A stretch of DNA of 64,000 nucleotides from Pleurocapsales cyanobacterium LEGE 06147 (GTDB lineage Bacteria; Cyanobacteriota; Cyanobacteriia; Cyanobacteriales; Xenococcaceae), in the NCBI GenBank assembly GCA_015207585.1, contig JADEWQ010000018.1, positions 1 to 64,000 of the forward strand, in the 5' to 3' direction. This document shows positions 1,641 through 34,358 of this stretch, one piece after another. Every line of letters starts with the position of its first letter. Positions within the stretch are counted from its first letter, which is position 1. Position numbers and translations under genes: made by a program. The notes under the pieces were generated by a model, which did not search any database, had not been told where the DNA came from, and saw only the letters and a program-made list of their open reading frames with translations.

Positions 1641-2765
1641 TTAATATAGTTCATACTTTAATAAAGTGCAGGATAAAGAGCCATTGTAAACAGGCAGCCT
1701 TTGGGAAGTTCTTAACCCAATTTTTTTAGCTAAATTTTTATTCCCAGTTAATATATAAGCAGTCCACCCTCGAAAACGCTGTTTCAAAATATCTCCTAAT
1801 AGTTGATAAAGGGATTCTAATTCTTTGGTATTACCCAAACGTTGACCGTAAGGAGGGTTACAAATAATGATTCCTCGCTCTGCTGGAGCTTCAACAGACG
1901 ATAACTCTTGTTGCAGGAATTTTATTTGTTTTTCTAGTCCACAATTGCTGGCATTAATACGTGCTTGTTCGATAACTTTTAAATCGCGATCGCTTCCTAT
2001 AATAGGTGCAGCAAGAGTAGATAATTGACTATCTTTTGCTTGAGTTACTATTTCCTGCCACAAATCGCGCTCGAAATCTTGCCAAGTTTGAAAACCAAAC
2101 CTTTGACGATATAAGCCTGGAGCAATATTTAAAGCTTTTAAAGCAGCTTCTATAGGTAAAGTTCCCGAACCGCATAAAGGGTCAAACAAAGGCAAATCTG
2201 GTGTCCATCCTGTCATTTCTAATAAAGCAGCAGCCAGGGTTTCTTTTAAAGGAGCAAGTCCCATAGCCGGACGATAGCCCCGCCGATGTAAACTAGAACC
2301 GGAACTATCTAAACTGAGGATACAGCGATCGCGATCGATATGAGCATTAATTAATAAATCTGGATTTTTTGGCTCGATACTAGAACGTTTGCGATATTTT
2401 TTTTGTTGTCGATCTGTAATTGCGTTTTTAATTTGTAGAGCAGTAAAGTGAGTATGATTTAAGTTTTTATTTTTACCAGTACAATTAACTGCAAAAGTCT
2501 GATTAATTTGTAAATATTCTGACCAATTAATATTTTGAACGCTACGATATAATTGTTGCGCATTATAAGCTTTAATATTCGCAATAGGAACGAGAACGCG
2601 GAAAATTGTTCTTGCCCAAATATTAACGCGATAAAGTAGAGCTTTATCTCCTTGAAAATATACTCCGGCAAAATCGGGACGAACTGCTTTTGCACCCAAT
2701 CTTGCTAATTCTTGAGCGGCGATCACTTCTAAACCACGAGCAACAGTAGCAAAGTAATTATTCAT
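1641..2765 (-). CDS. THUMP-domain class I RNA methyltransferase (RlmL/YcbY-type)
   Basis: The 374-residue product has an N-terminal THUMP-like RNA-binding region (about residues 45-155) and a C-terminal Rossmann methyltransferase. The SAM-binding motif DPLCGSGT is at about 195-202 and the catalytic motif NPPY at 303-306, typical of N2-guanine or N6-adenine RNA methylation. It resembles the N-terminal half of E. coli RlmL, which makes m2G2445 in 23S rRNA; the RlmK half is absent, as is common in cyanobacteria. The exact target base is inferred from family only. It stands alone between a secreted protein gene and the divergent purT. Confidence 0.85.
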   Translation of the reverse strand: MNNYFATVARGLEVIAAQELARLGAKAVRPDFAGVYFQGDKALLYRVNIWARTIFRVLVPIANIKAYNAQQLYRSVQNINWSEYLQINQTFAVNCTGKNKNLNHTHFTALQIKNAITDRQQKKYRKRSSIEPKNPDLLINAHIDRDRCILSLDSSGSSLHRRGYRPAMGLAPLKETLAAALLEMTGWTPDLPLFDPLCGSGTLPIEAALKALNIAPGLYRQRFGFQTWQDFERDLWQEIVTQAKDSQLSTLAAPIIGSDRDLKVIEQARINASNCGLEKQIKFLQQELSSVEAPAERGIIICNPPYGQRLGNTKELESLYQLLGDILKQRFRGWTAYILTGNKNLAKKIGLRTSQRLPVYNGSLSCTLLKYELY

Positions 2766-2931
2766 TTAAAAAAGTTAAAATTCAAAAGGCAAAAGTCAAA
2801 AATAAGAGAGAAAAAAATAATTTTTTAAATAATTAATAATAATGTTTTGCTCGATATATATTTAATGGTATCTAGTAACAATATGATACGATTATTTAAG
2901 TTTTAAAAAAATATGTTTTATCCATAATGAT

Positions 2932-4218
2932 ATGATGTCAAAAAATCTACAATTACCGCAAAAAATAATGTTACTTGGTTCCGGAGAACTAGGCAAAGAA
3001 TTTGTTATTGCCGCTCACAGACTGGGTAATTTTGTAGTAGCAGTAGATCGTTATGCTAATGCACCAGCGATGCAAGTGGCAGATAAACTTGAAGTCATTT
3101 CAATGCTGGATGGCAACGATCTAGAAAGAGTCGTACAGCAATACCAACCCGATTTTATCGTGCCAGAGATTGAAGCAATCCGCACTGAAAAGTTAATTGA
3201 ATTGGAACAGAGAGGTTACACTGTTATCCCTACAGCAGCGGCTACCAACTACACCATGAATCGCGATCGCATTCGCGAACTCGCTCACACCCAACTAGGC
3301 ATTAGAACGGCTAAATATGCCTATGCTACCAGTTTAGAAGAATTAGTTGCAGTTTCCGAGCAAATTGGCTTTCCCAATGTCGTGAAAACACTGCGCTTCC
3401 TGCGCGGGAACGGGGCTTACAAGGGGCTGAAGTAAATTCAGCCCACAGCCCCTCACCAAGTTCCCGCCCCCAGCGCACTCAAACCAGTCATGTCTTCTTC
3501 CGGTAAGGGTCAATCGGTGGTTAATTCAGCCGCAGAAGTAGCCAAAGCATGGCATTATGCTATTGAAGGAGCGAGGGGAGACACCCAAAAAGTAATTGTG
3601 GAAGAGTTTATCGATTTTGAGATTGAAATTACTTTACTAACCGTTAAACAGTGGGATGCACCGACGCTTTTCTGTCCGCCTATCGGACATCGCCAAGAAA
3701 GAGGCGACTACCAAGAATCTTGGCAACCGACAGATAATATATCTGAAGCACAAATAGTGCAAGCACAAAAAATCGCCCAAAAGGTTACCGATGCTTTAGG
3801 AGGTGCTGGAATCTTTGGCATGGAATTTTTTATTACTAAAGATGAAGTAATTTTTTCCGGACTGTCTCCCCGTCCTCACGATACCGGAATGGTAACTTTA
3901 GTCTCTCAAAATCTTAATGAATTTGAATTACATTTGCGGACAATTTTAGGTTTACCCATTCCCAAGATAGAAGTATTTTCTCCTTCAGCCAGTGCAGTAA
4001 TTTTAGCCAGCGAACATTTAGAGCGAATAGTTTTTGCAAACGTTTCAGAAGCTTTAGCCATTCCCGATGTAGATATCAGGCTGTTTGGCAAACCAGATTC
4101 TCGTCCTTATCGTCGCATGGGAGTTGCTTTAGCTAAAGGAGATACAGTAGCACGAGCAAGAGAAAAAGCGACAACAGCAGCTAGCAAGGTAGTAATAAGA
4201 GGTACTTCACCAGATTAA
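2932..4218 (+). pseudogene. purT: purT split by a 96-bp repeat (formate-dependent GAR transformylase)
   Basis: Two adjacent reading frames together cover PurT, the ATP-grasp enzyme that formylates glycinamide ribonucleotide with formate in purine synthesis. The first part (2932-3435, 167 aa) carries the N-terminal pre-ATP-grasp domain with [10 protein letters not shown]. The second (3490-4218, 242 aa) begins MSSSGKGQ and carries the rest of the ATP-grasp domain, including PRPHDTGMVT. Removing 96 bp at 3388-3483 restores the family sequence VVKPVMSSSGKGQ without a frame change. The insert keeps frame but brings one TAA at 3433-3435, just before the ATP-binding loop. The gene may be dead, may make two complementing halves (an ATG lies at 3490, without an obvious ribosome binding site), or may be read through. 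Both halves otherwise look undamaged, suggesting a recent event. Confidence 0.85.
3382..3482. repeat. Palindromic repeat element, full copy in purT
   Basis: The 101-bp stretch is identical, base for base, to 62586-62686. The net insertion is 96 bp. It contains nested inverted repeats: GCGGGAAC with GTTCCCGC, and an inner hairpin GGGCTGAA / TTCAGCCC. Short A runs at both edges are compatible with a small target duplication. It encodes no protein of its own and resembles a non-autonomous, MITE-like or RPE-like element. Confidence 0.85.
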
Positions 4219-26820: not shown

Positions 26821-28656
26821 TTAATTATTGTTATTAACTTTAATTCTAGTTAAAGTAATTTGAAACTGCGTTCCCAAATCACTATTAACTTTAATTTCAC
26901 CGCGAAGTTGATTGGTTAGATTTTTTACTAATTTTAATCCTAAACTTTTGGTTTGCTCTAAATCGAAATCGGGCGGTAAGCCTCTGCCATTATCGCTAAT
27001 AGTTAAGACGAGATTTCCTTCTTCGTCAGGCATGGCTTGAATATAAATTTCACCTTTCTTTCTAATTTTAAAAGCGTATTTAAGTGCATTAGAAACCAAT
27101 TCATTAATAATCAAACCACAGGGTACTGCCGTATCAATATCCAAGAAAAAATCTCGATTGATTTCTATTTTTTTGGTAATATTTAAATCATAAATTGTGT
27201 AAGAGCAAAACAAATTATTAGTTAAATTATAAATATATTCAGCTAGGTTAATTCTAGAAAGATTTGGAGATTGGTATAGTTGTTCGTGAATCAGTGCCAT
27301 TGCCCTTACTCGGTTTTGACTTTCCTTAAATTGCTCGAGAATTAGCTTATCTTTAAGAGAACGGGCTTGGAGATTAAGTAGGCTACAAATGACCTGTAAA
27401 TTATTTTTGACTCGATGGTGAATTTCCTTGAGCAGTATTTCTTTTTCTTTGAGAGCTTTTGCCTGTTTTCGTTCGGTAATATCTTCAGCTATGTAAGAAA
27501 ACCAGGATTCCTCATTTGTTATCTTGGCGATCGGGGAGACAGTTACTGAGAGATCGATCGCGCCTTTGTCAGTCTGGTGAACGTACTCAAAACTGACAGG
27601 ATGACCTGTTAATTCGCTTTGGCGGTAGTGGCCGATCCACTCCTGCATTATTGCTTGAGGAACGCCCATTTCGCTTGCCAATCGCCCTTTTACGGTTTCT
27701 GGAGTAAGTCCAAAAAATACTGCTGTAGTGGCGTTGTCGGAAATATGTAAAATATCATTCTCCACAAGCTTAACAACTCCCATCATCATCGGCGCACTAT
27801 TGTAAAAACTGCGCAGAATCGATTCCCTTTCCTGCAAAGCTTGTTCTGCTTGTTTACGCTTGGTGGTATCCCGTCCCACAGCTTGAAATTCGATTAAGTT
27901 ACCCTGCTGGTCAAAAATTGCCCGATTGCTCCATTGCATCCAGCGGATTTCTCCATTGACAATAACTCGATGCTCGATTGTCTCTACTGGATTTTCCTTA
28001 GTCAGAGACTTCAAAAGTCGCTCGCTCCTCTGTTGATCTTCTAAGAAAAGGAATGATTTGTAGCTATTTCCAATTAATTCCTCTTTTTCCCTGCCAAAAT
28101 AGCGACAGTAAGCCTGATTAACGAAGGTTAGTGTTCCCTCGGGCATCAACCGAGCAATTAGTTCTGTCTGATCCTCAACTATAGCGCGATAGCGTTCTTC
28201 GCTCTGCCGTAAGGCTGTTTCTAGCTTACGGCGTTCGGCAATTTCTCCTTCTAGTTCGAGGTTGGCTGCTTCCAATTTTTCTGGACTGGGAAGGGCAAGA
28301 GCTTTCGGAACTAACGGGATCAGCTCCAGAGCAGTGAAGCAGGAGATAAGAGCAGTGAAAACTTTGACGAATCCCGATAGCCAATAGTTTGGATGCCAGA
28401 GCGTCCAAATCTCCATCATATGAGTACTACCACAGGAGATGATAAAGGCGGCAAACAGAAGAAAGATCGAAGGATAGGGCAAATCTTGGCGTTTGTGGAC
28501 AAAATAGACCAGGGTAATCGGGATGGAATAATAGGCGATCGCAATCAGAAAGTCAGATACAACATGAAGCCAGACTAGGCGAGAAATCCAAAGGTAGCAA
28601 TGTCCGTGAGGAATAAATCGGGTTACTGCCAAAACGTTCGACAATACCTGTGACAT
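26821..28656 (-). CDS. Ethylene-receptor-like histidine kinase (ETR1-type sensor)
   Basis: The first 120 residues form three membrane helices matching the ETR1 ethylene-binding domain. Residues that bind copper and ethylene in ETR1 have counterparts: D35 and Y42 in SDFLIAIAYYSIP, I45-P46, I72, C75 and H79 in FIISCGSTH (ETR1 D25, Y32, I35-P36, I62, C65, H69). Two PAS domains follow (about 150-270 and 275-395), then a HisKA_2 kinase with the phosphoacceptor in KEIHHRVKNNLQ (about residue 411) and a HATPase_c domain. In Synechocystis a related protein (slr1212, SynEtr1/UirS) binds ethylene and controls phototaxis. This one lacks the GAF photosensor of that protein. Confidence 0.93.
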   Translation of the reverse strand: MSQVLSNVLAVTRFIPHGHCYLWISRLVWLHVVSDFLIAIAYYSIPITLVYFVHKRQDLPYPSIFLLFAAFIISCGSTHMMEIWTLWHPNYWLSGFVKVFTALISCFTALELIPLVPKALALPSPEKLEAANLELEGEIAERRKLETALRQSEERYRAIVEDQTELIARLMPEGTLTFVNQAYCRYFGREKEELIGNSYKSFLFLEDQQRSERLLKSLTKENPVETIEHRVIVNGEIRWMQWSNRAIFDQQGNLIEFQAVGRDTTKRKQAEQALQERESILRSFYNSAPMMMGVVKLVENDILHISDNATTAVFFGLTPETVKGRLASEMGVPQAIMQEWIGHYRQSELTGHPVSFEYVHQTDKGAIDLSVTVSPIAKITNEESWFSYIAEDITERKQAKALKEKEILLKEIHHRVKNNLQVICSLLNLQARSLKDKLILEQFKESQNRVRAMALIHEQLYQSPNLSRINLAEYIYNLTNNLFCSYTIYDLNITKKIEINRDFFLDIDTAVPCGLIINELVSNALKYAFKIRKKGEIYIQAMPDEEGNLVLTISDNGRGLPPDFDLEQTKSLGLKLVKNLTNQLRGEIKVNSDLGTQFQITLTRIKVNNNN

Positions 28657-29811: not shown

Positions 29812-30891
29812 ATGAAAATTATTATGATTGAGGGAGCTTTCCTCTATTTGTTCCAACTAGATCGCTCTCGCCAGTGGCTGGCACATCAACTTGATGAGTT
29901 TGGGCTCGGAGCGATAGAAACTCCGTTTCAGGTAATTTTTTCAGAGCCGGGGGTCGAGCTGCGCTTCTATGGAGTCGAGCGAGGGAGCGGACCAATAGTG
30001 TTAATTGTTCCCGCCCCGATTAAGAGTGCATCGATTTGGGATTTGAGTCCCTCCGTTAGTGTCGTGCAGCATTGCCTTCGGGAAGGATTGCGAGTTTACC
30101 TTCTCTGTTGGAAGCCGCCAAGAGAATCTCAACGAGATTTTGGTCTGTCGGAATATGCCGATCATTTTATTCTAGATGCCTTGGAGCCGATCTTATTGGA
30201 GACTGGACAGTCACAGATTTTCCTAGCCGGACATTCTTTGGGAGGAACTCTCGCCGCCATCTTTGCATCTCTCCACCCCGAGCGAGTCAAGGGGCTAATT
30301 CTCCTGGGAACGCCCCTGGGATTTGGTCGGTTGTCGGGGATTCTAGCTGCTTTCGTAAAGGCTTTTCCCAGAACTTCTTTTTTAACGGCGACTCGGGGAA
30401 ATATCCCTGGCTCATTTCTCTCGATCGTGTCTGGAGCGATCGCTCCAGTAACCTTCGGATTTGACCGATGGCTGGATTGGGTTTTAAGCCTTCCAGATAA
30501 CCACGCTCGGTTAACTCACTTGCGGGTCGCTCACTGGATGCTTGAAGAGATGCCGATGGCGCAGCGCCTTTTTAAAGAAGTCGTCGAACAGTTATATCGT
30601 GAAGATCGCTTTTTGAGCGGGAGCTTAAGGATTGGAGGCAAGCAAGCCGTGCCAGAACAGGTTACGGCTCCAGTACTGAGTGTTGTAGATCCACGATGCC
30701 GACTGGTTCGACCTCAATCCGTCATGCCGTTCCATCAAGCCATTAGCCATCCCGATTCTCAACTGCTCTGGTATGAAGGAGACACGGGAGTAGCTCTGCA
30801 ACACGTCGGGATGCTCGTTGGACGGCAGGCTCACCTGAATTTATGGCCGCCAATAATCGACTGGATTCATTCTCGTTGGGAGGAGGGATAA
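29812..30891 (+). CDS. Alpha/beta hydrolase, PhaC-like
   Basis: The 359-residue protein has the alpha/beta hydrolase fold and resembles the class III polyhydroxyalkanoate synthase subunit PhaC in overall plan (VLIVPAPI near the start of the fold, then RVYLLCWKPP). Its nucleophile elbow is GHSLGG, with serine in place of the cysteine required in PHA synthases, so it is more likely an esterase or acyltransferase. A catalytic Asp (VVDPRCR) and His (LQHVGML) can be placed in the last third. It follows the SPFH gene by 12 bp. The first ATG is used; the second, MIEGAF, is four codons later. Confidence 0.75.
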   Translation: MKIIMIEGAFLYLFQLDRSRQWLAHQLDEFGLGAIETPFQVIFSEPGVELRFYGVERGSGPIVLIVPAPIKSASIWDLSPSVSVVQHCLREGLRVYLLCWKPPRESQRDFGLSEYADHFILDALEPILLETGQSQIFLAGHSLGGTLAAIFASLHPERVKGLILLGTPLGFGRLSGILAAFVKAFPRTSFLTATRGNIPGSFLSIVSGAIAPVTFGFDRWLDWVLSLPDNHARLTHLRVAHWMLEEMPMAQRLFKEVVEQLYREDRFLSGSLRIGGKQAVPEQVTAPVLSVVDPRCRLVRPQSVMPFHQAISHPDSQLLWYEGDTGVALQHVGMLVGRQAHLNLWPPIIDWIHSRWEEG

Positions 30892-30894
30892 ATA

Positions 30895-32181
30895 TTATGA
30901 TTTAGGTTTTCGATCGAGGCGATTGGCTTGTTCGATCGCCAACTTTTCTCTAGCTCTTTGGGCAAAAGGTTGTAATTCCTCGATCGCCATGCCGCTGAGA
31001 ATACTTAAATTTTCTAAATCCATTCCCTTCATTAACATTTCTACACACCAAGTCTGTCTGGCTTGTTCTATGGTTGGGTTTTGTCCTTGAAGGGTAAGTA
31101 ACCCTTCTGTCAAATTTGCCCATAAAGCCCGTAGTTCTTGCTCGGACATTGGTTGTTCTTCTTCGTTGAGAAACAAAGCAGGCTGGTCATCTTTACGAGT
31201 TTTGAGCCATTGAGTTAAGGGATTATTAGTAGAAGAACCATAGCGTTTTCCCGTAATCCATTGATTGAGGGGAACTTGTCGGGGTGCGTCGCCATTAATT
31301 TGCAAGATATGTTGATGGGATTCGCTAATAGAGTGCGATCGCTCTAAATTAACTACCTCTGTAGCAGATAAACCCGCTCCAAATAAAACATAAGCCAAAG
31401 CGTAATGCTGTCGTCCAAGTTTCTTAGCTCGTTGGAGAATCGAATGAACTAAATTTCCTGGGAGATCGGTTACTAGACTTACTGGTGGTGCTGAGTCACG
31501 GATTACTCCTCTGTAAAACGACGAAGACGGTACGGACCGTTGTTCGGTCTTAGTTTCGGTAGTGATAGTTGTTTGCTGTTGGGGCGCGATCGCTCCCTGT
31601 AAAAACAATGTTACTAAACTTTCTAGGAAATCTTCTCGTCCTTCCCAAAATTTGTGTCCTTCGCTAGTTAATTCGATCGCAAAGTAGCCCAACAACAGCC
31701 CATTGAGTAAACTAGCTAATTTTTCAGCAGGCAAACGACTCTGCCAACCATTTTCCGCGATCGCTTTTGCCAAACATTCGGCAACATAACTATTGGCTTG
31801 ATTTAAGCTCTGTCCTATAGCGATACGATTTTCTAATGGATATTGACCCGCATTACCTACTATAGAACGTATTAATTCGGGAACTCTTTCTAAAGCCTGT
31901 AAACTTTCCTCTGCATAAGCTTTTAAAGCCTCAGAGACGCTCTGCTTGGCAACAGCTCGTTCGGTTAAAGTTTTACCTAACTGGGCAAAGTTGGCAGAAT
32001 CTTCCATTACTGCTAAAAGGAGTCCATGCTTGCTGCCAAAATGACGGAATATAGTAACTTCATTTACTTGAGCGCGTTCGGCAACTTCTTTGGTTGTGGT
32101 TTCTGTCACTCCTTTGGTAGCAAATAACTCCAACGCTGCATCAATCAGTCGGGTTCTCGTTGATTTTTTTTGAGCAGGCAT
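30895..32181 (-). CDS. TetR regulator fused to a tyrosine-recombinase-like domain
   Basis: The start is the ATG at 32181 (MPAQKKSTRTRL); an earlier in-frame start would lie inside an operator. Residues 5-60 form a TetR helix-turn-helix (VAERAQVNEVTIFRHFGSK), followed by a ligand-binding-like helical region to about 190. The C-terminal 200 residues resemble the catalytic domain of tyrosine recombinases: YALAYVLFGAGLSATEVVNL, then PLNQWI, then a region like the last helices (CVEMLMKGMDLENLSILSGM). The usual Arg of the first motif and the nucleophilic Tyr are not seen, so it is likely a DNA-binding or dimer module without enzymatic activity. It is divergent from desC and probably controls it. 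Confidence 0.8.
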   Translation of the reverse strand: MPAQKKSTRTRLIDAALELFATKGVTETTTKEVAERAQVNEVTIFRHFGSKHGLLLAVMEDSANFAQLGKTLTERAVAKQSVSEALKAYAEESLQALERVPELIRSIVGNAGQYPLENRIAIGQSLNQANSYVAECLAKAIAENGWQSRLPAEKLASLLNGLLLGYFAIELTSEGHKFWEGREDFLESLVTLFLQGAIAPQQQTTITTETKTEQRSVPSSSFYRGVIRDSAPPVSLVTDLPGNLVHSILQRAKKLGRQHYALAYVLFGAGLSATEVVNLERSHSISESHQHILQINGDAPRQVPLNQWITGKRYGSSTNNPLTQWLKTRKDDQPALFLNEEEQPMSEQELRALWANLTEGLLTLQGQNPTIEQARQTWCVEMLMKGMDLENLSILSGMAIEELQPFAQRAREKLAIEQANRLDRKPKS

Positions 32182-32190
32182 AAATAAAAA

Positions 32191-32207
32191 TGCAAGTAGC
32201 ACTTGCA
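32191..32207. promoter_or_regulatory. Palindromic operator, perfect copy
   Basis: TGCAAGTAGCACTTGCA has 7-base arms, TGCAAGT and ACTTGCA, around AGC. It lies 10 bp upstream of the TetR-fusion start codon and 158 bp before desC. A near-identical site is 47 bp away, as expected for binding of a dimeric autoregulator. Confidence 0.8.
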
Positions 32208-32237
32208 CGATTGGAAAGAACTTGATAAACTAAAAAA

Positions 32238-32254
32238 TGTAAGTAGCACTTGCA
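32238..32254. promoter_or_regulatory. Palindromic operator, second copy
   Basis: TGTAAGTAGCACTTGCA differs from the site at 32191-32207 by one base. The 47-bp centre-to-centre distance is about 4.5 helical turns. The pair sits in the shared control region of the regulator and desC. Confidence 0.8.
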
Positions 32255-32364
32255 TGTCTTATCTATAATTATAGCGATAAAGCTATAGCGTGCTGAGACC
32301 TGCATTAACTCACGAAGTTATTTGCTGCATCAGTAATAAAAGATTTCTAAGGACAAAATAAATA

Positions 32365-33216
32365 ATGACACAACAAGCAATTATTCCAGAAGGTAAGCCA
32401 GAAGGTACCTTTTCTTGGATAAGTTTGGCTTTTTTCGCGACAATTCACGTTTTAGCTCTATTGGCACCTTGGTTCTTTTCTTGGTCGGCTTTAGGAGTGA
32501 TGATTTTTCTCCACTGGCTACTGGGTAGTATTGGTATCTGTTTAACCTATCACCGTCTTTTGACCCATCGCAGTTTTCAGGTGCCTCAGTGGTTGGAATA
32601 TATCTTAGCAACTATAGGGGCTTTAGCGTTGGAAGGAGGACCGATCTTTTGGGTGTCGGCACATCGTTTACATCATTCTCATACCGAGGATAAAGATAAA
32701 GATCCCTATTCAGCAAGTCGGGGTTTTTGGTGGAGTCATATGCTCTGGCTATTTTACCATCGGGAGCCTTTTTTCAACTATGAATCTTACAAAAAATATG
32801 CAGCCGATTTAGAGCGATATGCTTATTATCGCTGGTTAAACCGTAACTTCCTACTGCTTCAGATTCCTTTAGGGTTATTGTTGTACGCTTTGGGCGGATG
32901 GTCTTTTGTCATCTATGGTATGTTTTTGAGAACAGTTTTGCTTTGGCACAGCACTTGGTTAATTAACTCCGCTACCCATTTACGAGGATATCGTAATTTC
33001 TCTGTGGATGATGGCTCTCGCAATCTTTGGTGGGCGGCAATTTTAACTTATGGAGAAGGTTGGCATAATAACCATCATGCTCACCCCCGTGTAGCTAAAG
33101 CTGGACAGCGTTGGTGGGAAATCGACATGACTTGGTGGGCAATTCAAATTCTCAGAATCTTGGGTTTAACGAAGAAAATTGTCATGGAACCAACTCGGAC
33201 TGTAGCAAAGATTTGA
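32365..33216 (+). CDS. desC: Acyl-lipid delta-9 desaturase
   Basis: The 283-residue membrane protein has the three histidine boxes of acyl-CoA/acyl-lipid delta-9 desaturases: HRLLTH (about 63-68), HRLHH (100-104) and HNNHH (232-236). It has hydrophobic stretches near residues 20-55 and 165-195. DesC introduces the first double bond in stearic acid of membrane lipids, which keeps membranes fluid in the cold. Its divergent neighbour is a TetR-type regulator with two shared operator palindromes, suggesting control by that protein. Length is normal for the family. Confidence 0.94.
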   Translation: MTQQAIIPEGKPEGTFSWISLAFFATIHVLALLAPWFFSWSALGVMIFLHWLLGSIGICLTYHRLLTHRSFQVPQWLEYILATIGALALEGGPIFWVSAHRLHHSHTEDKDKDPYSASRGFWWSHMLWLFYHREPFFNYESYKKYAADLERYAYYRWLNRNFLLLQIPLGLLLYALGGWSFVIYGMFLRTVLLWHSTWLINSATHLRGYRNFSVDDGSRNLWWAAILTYGEGWHNNHHAHPRVAKAGQRWWEIDMTWWAIQILRILGLTKKIVMEPTRTVAKI

Positions 33217-33371: not shown

Positions 33372-34049
33372 TTAGCGCCGGCTGAACTTTACCTTCAGCC
33401 CATCGCGAGGACGAGAAAACGGCAATACAACTCGCTCTAGATTTTGTCCGGGTACTAACTCCCATTTGCGATCGCGAACTAACAAAGCAGCAAACAGTTT
33501 CATTTCTAATCTGGCAAACTCTTTACCCAAGCATTCTCGTATGCCGCCACCGAATGGAATATGGCTGAAGAGTTTTTGTTTATCTTGCGATCGCTCTGGG
33601 TCAAATCGATCCGGGTCAAATCGCTCTGGGTGTGTGTATATCTGACTATCTTGATAGGTTTCCGGAATCTGATAATATACATCCCAACCCTGTAGAATCG
33701 AATACCCACCGAACTCGCAAGTCTCCAGCACTTTCCGCGATCCACTCCGAACCACAGGTGGTGCAATTCGTAACACCTCTTTTAGCACTTGCTCTAGGTA
33801 AATCATTTGCTTCGAATCGGGTAAGCAATTCTTCCCACGCTCGAACTGCTCGATCGAACTTGCTACCCGGAAACCGAACTGGAATCGTCAAAAGCCCCTC
33901 GCTCCAAGCTTCGTAAACTTTTTCTAACGATTCGTCCGCAGCAGTACTCACGCCGACAAATAAACGACAAGCAAAGACTCCCCGATCGCAGGTAAACCCA
34001 ATCGACCAGGAGGTAGTGGGAGATTTGGCTGAGTTGAAAGGCTGGTCAT
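33372..34049 (-). pseudogene. Decayed cytochrome P450 (CYP120-like)
   Basis: Three pieces in different frames make up a P450. The N-terminus is MTSLSTQPNLPLPPGRLGLP (34049 down to about 33950). A middle piece follows (LEKVYEAWSEGLLTIPVRFPG, about 33925-33810). The intact C-terminal 144 codons (33806-33372) have the ExxR motif in KEVLR and the heme loop PFGGGIRECLGKE. Two internal deletions or frame shifts remove the I-helix oxygen-binding region. The sequence is closest to CYP120-type retinoid hydroxylases of cyanobacteria, from memory. A truncated tetR gene is divergent from it, suggesting that a regulator-P450 pair decayed together. Confidence 0.85.
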
Positions 34050-34112: not shown

Positions 34113-34358
34113 ATGAACGAGAGCAACAAAAAGCCGGGAAGACCCCGTAGTCTCCAATCTCATCAAGCAACATTGCAAGCGACTCTGGAGTTACTTGCAA
34201 AAGTTGGGTTTGATGCCATGAGCATTGAGGCGATCGCGGCTCGTGCTGGTGTTGGCAAAACCACCATCTACCGTCGCTATAGCTGCAAAGAGGAATTGGT
34301 TGCCACTGAGTCATGGAGATGTTATGTTCGTCGTGCCTTACATCTTTTTCTGGGATAG
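34113..34358 (+). pseudogene. Truncated TetR family regulator
   Basis: An 81-residue frame begins MNESNKKPGRPRS and encodes a normal TetR DNA-binding domain (IEAIAARAGVGKTTIYRRY). The family resemblance ends near residue 67, and the ligand-binding domain of about 130 residues is missing. The structured repeat element at about 34382 follows shortly after. It faces the P450 remnant, which it may once have regulated. Confidence 0.8.

Follow-up and report, generated by a model that had tools for sequence, protein, structure and literature searches.

The window analysed here, a stretch of 64,000 nucleotides from Pleurocapsales cyanobacterium LEGE 06147, contains a gene whose product joins a TetR half to a domain resembling tyrosine recombinases. 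This gene diverges from a fatty acid desaturase gene, desC, and two palindromes lie in the promoter region that both genes share. A first question is whether such a protein controls desC, and a second one is what a recombinase fold would be doing in a transcription regulator.

A TetR half joined to a tyrosine-recombinase fold

The regulator gene and its parts map as follows:

30895..32181, minus strand: regulator gene, 428 aa, with TetR half, linker and tyrosine-recombinase-like domain (open reading frame, Pfam, homologues aligned from the same start, AlphaFold2)
32008..32148, minus strand: TetR_N helix-turn-helix, residues 12-58 (Pfam PF00440, E 3.7e-16, 59.1 bits, cut-off 24; invariant columns)
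31486..31572, minus strand: low-confidence linker, residues 204-232 (pLDDT <50)
30904..31476, minus strand: tyrosine-recombinase fold, predicted to be catalytically dead, residues 236-426 (Pfam Phage_integrase PF00589, E 2.7e-9, 37.5 bits, cut-off 27.1; VIA-align; catalytic columns)

The fusion had been proposed in a first-pass annotation from the letters of the DNA, and both domains are borne out by Pfam and by the modelled structure. In the AlphaFold2 prediction, which was built from 49 rows and has a mean pLDDT of 81 (>85 in most blocks of the C-terminal domain), residues 236-426 show the recombinase fold that a structure prediction had been expected to reveal, superposing on XerA (5hxy) with a Z of 20.5 and 3.8 A over 173 residues at 18% identity (VIA-align 2). 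The next structural matches were XerH, Tn1549 Int, an integron integrase and Cre, and a profile of the C-terminal domain retrieved the Xer-like recombinase 4a8e (5.8e-9). The domain includes a long C-terminal helix (400-424).

Residues 5-195 match TetR structures (2g3b with a Z of 17.2, FadR with about 16); the fatty-acid FadR structures are among the top matches, but level with many others. After the helix-turn-helix, the model is helical from residue 51 to 197, with one 3-residue strand (146-148), as expected of a TetR ligand and dimer region. The recognition helix, NEVTIFRHF, is near-invariant in relatives, whose alignment A1 comprises the window protein and 48 of 61 other unique homologues; L062 and L023, each with an in-frame stop, were omitted from the homologue set. 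The likely start codon of the regulator, as judged from these sequences, is the ATG at 32181, from which relatives align; a GTG at 32208, inside the left palindrome, was dropped.

Predicted operators within the desC promoter

The intergenic region and the gene facing the regulator contain the following features:

32191..32207, unstranded: predicted operator O1, TGCAAGTAGCACTTGCA (perfect 7-bp arms, 3-bp centre; conserved in relatives)
32203..32208, plus strand: predicted -35 box of desC, TTGCAC, within the right half of O1 (spacing to the -10)
32223..32231, plus strand: predicted extended -10 of desC, TGATAAACT (conservation of TGnTANNNT)
32238..32254, unstranded: predicted operator O2, TGTAAGTAGCACTTGCA (one base off O1, one arm mismatch; conserved in relatives)
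32268..32273, minus strand: possible -10 of the regulator's own transcript, TATAAT (sequence only; columns weakly conserved in relatives)
32365..33216, plus strand: desC-like fatty acid desaturase, 283 aa (PF00487, E 1.9e-19), a putative Delta-9 enzyme

The two 17-bp palindromes announced by the first-pass annotation, 47 bp apart and differing in one base, are found at these positions, 47 bp from start to start and with 30 bp between them. They are not repeated in this genome: the search suggested at that stage returned two sites with the exact pattern TGYAAGTNNNACTTRCA in 6.23 Mb, both at this locus, and none for the reversed control. With the looser pattern TGYAAGYNNNRCTTRCA, 24 of the 27 family genomes yielded 51 sites between them, against 4 for the control; by our own tally the 51 fall upstream of desC in 48 cases (including a desC that has moved, in genome G015), before another gene, described below, in 2 and elsewhere in 1.

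A redundant set of 130 divergent regulator/desC loci, restricted to those with complete genes and a divergent desC close by, has a site pair scoring 26-28 of 28 in 127; the exceptions are L114, with its second site 85 bp away, and L122 and L123, with one site each. Spacing within the 127 pairs is 47 bp in 85, 46 in 17, 48 in 17, 51-53 in 7 and 44 in 1, so that 120 lie at 44-48 bp. The step from this range to 51-53 bp amounts to about half a helical turn, which argues against a rigid contact between two bound dimers.

The distance appears to follow instead from the promoter itself. A -35 box TTGCAn formed by the right half of O1, together with an extended -10 TGnTANNNT between the sites, occurs in 59 of 62 non-redundant promoters, with a spacer of 17 bp in 53 and of 18 bp in 6, whereas shuffled spacers would give an extended -10 at the same spacing in 0.22 of 62. 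TGnTANNNT is the strongest conserved run between the operators, each named letter being present in 33 of the 35 promoters of 47-bp spacing, and a few A-rich columns show weaker conservation. O2 is separated from the -10 by 5-7 bp in 56 of these 59 promoters, which places the predicted start of desC transcription on the first base of O2 or beside it, and near 32238 in the window. The palindromes would thus lie in the shared promoter, as first proposed, overlapping the predicted -35 and start of desC, and we regard the operators as built into this promoter, with an O1-O2 distance set by promoter geometry. Helical phasing between dimers was considered as the source of the 47-bp distance and rejected in favour of this geometry, because the -35/-10 spacer is fixed at 17 or 18 bp while the position of O2 shifts.

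Distribution and natural experiments

In a sample of the phylum, the regulator was found in 44 of 386 genomes, all of them in the class of the window; it is fused in 41 and consists of the TetR part only in three (G037, G202 and G357). The double site, with 28-32 bp between palindromes, occurs in 32 of the 386 genomes, each one among the 44 with the regulator, and in none of the 342 without it (reversed control, 0/386). In G015, desC has been relocated together with both sites, which stand upstream of it at 2970 and 3017 of L147, 47 bp from each other, and the region upstream of the regulator (L148) contains no site, its best match being 11 of 14.

The TetR-only regulators L121, L122 and L123 all retain the pairing with desC, the recognition helix and the palindrome or palindromes, which indicates that the TetR half would be the part reading the operators. 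L121, with 236 aa and a proline-rich tail in place of the recombinase domain, still has desC, a NEVTLFRHF helix and the two sites with 47-bp spacing, so the domain seems dispensable there. A tree of TetR halves, thinned of near-identical rows to 72, separates the whole regulator set from its paralogues at 100/100 and places L121 inside the fused group (89/87), which makes a loss of the recombinase domain likely in this case; L122 and L123 sit on a long branch at the unresolved base. Taken at face value, these cases point to desC as the target and to the recombinase domain as an extra that the regulator can lose.

Some loci depart from the common arrangement. L154, L155 and L156 are TetR paralogues with the same NEVTLFRHF helix, other neighbours and, in their vicinity, no palindrome that matches better than 11 of 14. 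In L153 (G026, 2217-3266), a regulator lacking its first 110 residues abuts a 3′ fragment of desC, and G026 contains no site; either the operators were deleted along with the start of each gene, or the contig is misassembled. L004, from a record titled Candidatus Gracilibacteria, has the regulator, desC and the operators; it falls in a group with the window and Hydrococcus and is probably a mis-binned cyanobacterial contig.

A recombinase domain predicted to be dead

The first-pass annotation had considered the recombinase-like domain to lack the catalytic residues, and this is right for all but one of those compared with 4a8e: the window protein has S272 for R-I, E372 for the HxxR histidine, M398 at the H/W position and F406 for the tyrosine, but retains the R-II arginine (R375). 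The catalytic lysine was assessed by eye in that single alignment. Across alignment A2, with 75 rows (the window and 74 of 83 stretches), R-I is an arginine in 2 rows and missing in 73, the R-II arginine is present in 29, the tyrosine is kept in 67, and the HxxR histidine occurs in none. Since no row has this histidine or the full set of R-I, His, R-II and Tyr, catalysis is excluded across the family as far as these columns tell. The protein shares with XerA, XerH and XerC/D the catalytic-domain fold over residues 236-426, but differs from them in its lost catalytic residues and in having a TetR half in place of the core-binding domain.

The C-terminal half nevertheless appears to be under purifying selection and not in decay, with a dN/dS (NG86) of 0.08-0.30 against 0.02-0.11 for the N-terminal half across 14 close pairs, among them two duplicates from genomes already represented. 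Its net charge has a median of +1 (-4 in the window), compared with +9 and +12 in two near-identical ordinary recombinases, a crude measure with a small control. In the 27 family genomes, the C-domain profile matched the fusion genes, including truncated copies, and a single genome added four weak matches, with E from 4.3e-7 to 9.7e-4; of these, L158 and L159 resemble ordinary recombinases. Among the matches examined, which include these two of the four weak ones, the profile revealed no free-standing close relative of the domain in those genomes.

Neighbouring genes

A small membrane-protein gene present in 4 of the 27 family genomes (L150, L151, L161 and L162) is preceded in all four by two near-identical palindromes 51 bp apart. 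The pairs lie at 2635-2702 in L150 and 2487-2554 in L151, L151 also has TTGCAA-17 bp-TGTTATTTT before the gene, and in L150 and L151 the gene adjoins a 4HBT thioesterase and another TetR gene. It may be a second target of the regulator.

In the window, a histidine kinase with an ethylene-receptor ETR1_N domain, PAS and HisKA_2 is encoded at 26821-28656 (minus strand), and an alpha/beta hydrolase resembling the class III PHA synthase PhaC (4.5e-47, below cut-off) at 29812-30891 (plus strand), ending right before the stop of the regulator. On the other side of the locus, a C-terminal cytochrome P450 fragment (33372-33951; 3.3e-36), with apparent remains in another frame, lies beside a truncated TetR reading frame of 81 aa (34113-34358), and both look like decayed genes.

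Proposed mechanism and alternatives

The most probable reading of the locus is a local, self-regulating TetR-type repressor of desC, whose dead recombinase fold would be a protein-contact module. A dimer of TetR halves would bind each palindrome and, with O1 covering the -35 and O2 the transcription start, the bound protein would shut RNA polymerase off the desC promoter. This anatomy of repression is read from the layout of operators and promoter with established promoter knowledge. Both sites lie upstream of the start codon of the regulator, which would thus probably limit its own expression. The weakest step concerns the signal: a small lipid-derived ligand, be it an acyl chain, acyl-ACP or a free fatty acid, would most likely occupy the TetR pocket and set the level of repression, by analogy with DesT, where acyl-CoA does so. 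As for the C-terminal fold, it would neither cut DNA nor read the operators, and, kept by selection, it would most likely join dimers or a partner; exaptation is the best reading of its origin. The specific control of desC that the first-pass annotation had thought likely gains strength from the conserved divergent pairing, the promoter-embedded sites, their rarity elsewhere and their having moved with desC, and the regulator very probably controls this gene specifically, to judge from comparative sequence evidence. The same annotation spoke of a new regulator type, which holds for the domain architecture but not for DNA binding and operator logic; these look like those of an ordinary TetR repressor, and three relatives without the recombinase part keep the palindrome or palindromes and the pairing with desC.

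A possible but rather doubtful addition to this repression is that the recombinase-like domain tetramerises in the manner of Xer or Cre, bridging the dimers at O1 and O2 and trapping or bending the promoter. The long C-terminal helix, the nearly constant presence of two sites and the selection on the domain would fit such an assembly, but L121 has the 47-bp site pair although it lacks the domain, the spacing is not tied to one helical face, and promoter geometry by itself accounts for the distance. It is likewise unlikely, and somewhat more so, that, in a transcription factor widespread among cyanobacteria, the fold grafted on TetR preserves tetramer assembly or DNA grip and locks the promoter between the operators, so that the cell would sense the state of its membrane lipids and set the first desaturation step.

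That the protein is an activator or dual regulator, recruiting or repositioning RNA polymerase at the desC promoter and repressing itself, is improbable. Activation might make use of the two sites and of so unusual an additional domain, and TTGCAN is only a fair match to the -35 consensus; however, O1 overlaps the -35 and O2 the start, and a protein bound over either of them normally blocks transcription, while a conserved extended -10 with a 17-bp spacer should make the promoter work unaided. We give equally little credit to the domain as a functionless passenger: it is absent from L121, probably by secondary loss (89/87), but retained in 41 of 44 regulator genomes under purifying selection. 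It is very unlikely that the sites belong to another regulator, with the fused gene as a mere neighbour, given their co-occurrence with a regulator of this family in 32 of 32 genomes, the persistence of both regulator and sited desC, apart from each other, in G015, and the TetR-only forms with the same recognition helix and site. Finally, a recombinase fold next to inverted repeats might evoke a promoter switch, but recombination at the palindromes was rejected as next to impossible, with the HxxR histidine and the full catalytic set missing in 75 of 75 rows and with the promoter between the sites pointing the same way in 59 of the 62 non-redundant loci.

Relation to known systems

DesT is a TetR-type protein that adjoins its target and neither it nor MadR is known to carry a recombinase domain. 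As described in the cited texts, DesT of Pseudomonas aeruginosa regulates the desBC desaturase genes (PMC8872791, PMC8319022) and discriminates saturated from unsaturated acyl-CoAs (PMC8872791), MadR of mycobacteria is a desaturation repressor released by a lipid intermediate (PMC8872791), and both exemplify the control of desaturases by acyl-CoA-sensing repressors in other bacteria (PMC8872791, PMC8319022). Set beside DesT by description, the regulator reported here is likewise of the TetR type and would be devoted to a desaturase gene, as suggested by its pairing and predicted operators, and a DesT-like logic would be the best reading, by analogy; acyl-CoA discrimination is a property of DesT, whereas the recombinase domain is particular to the present protein. 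With MadR it would share the proposed repression of desaturation, although MadR targets mycolic acid desaturases.

In cyanobacteria, the desC transcript of Synechococcus 7002 is reported to be steady over temperature (PMC3468840), and that of chilled Nostoc 7120 to rise, as cited in the same paper. The transcriptome data are said there not to fit transcription-factor control of desaturase genes (PMC3468840).

Repurposed recombinases have been described in other settings. In the account of PMC3212892, the Crypton-derived DUF3504 genes of animals (KCTD1, ZMYM2-4, QRICH1) also have tyrosine recombinase domains, dead and fused to other domains, in transcription regulators, but these are eukaryotic, have other partner domains and come from Crypton transposons. 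TnsF of Tn6022-like transposons, by the description in PMC10293859, is a bacterial inactivated tyrosine recombinase reused as a target selector of a transposon, and not as a regulator of a housekeeping gene. No paper describing a TetR/dead-recombinase regulator was found, as judged by titles and abstract openings. Our verdict is that the TetR-repressor logic is known in kind, and that the novelty lies in the recombinase graft and the part it plays. The locus is a concrete candidate for transcriptional control of a cyanobacterial desaturase, with predicted operators mapped in many cyanobacteria, and among bacteria it is a clear example of a recombinase fold that became part of a transcription regulator, in parallel to the Crypton-derived genes of animals.
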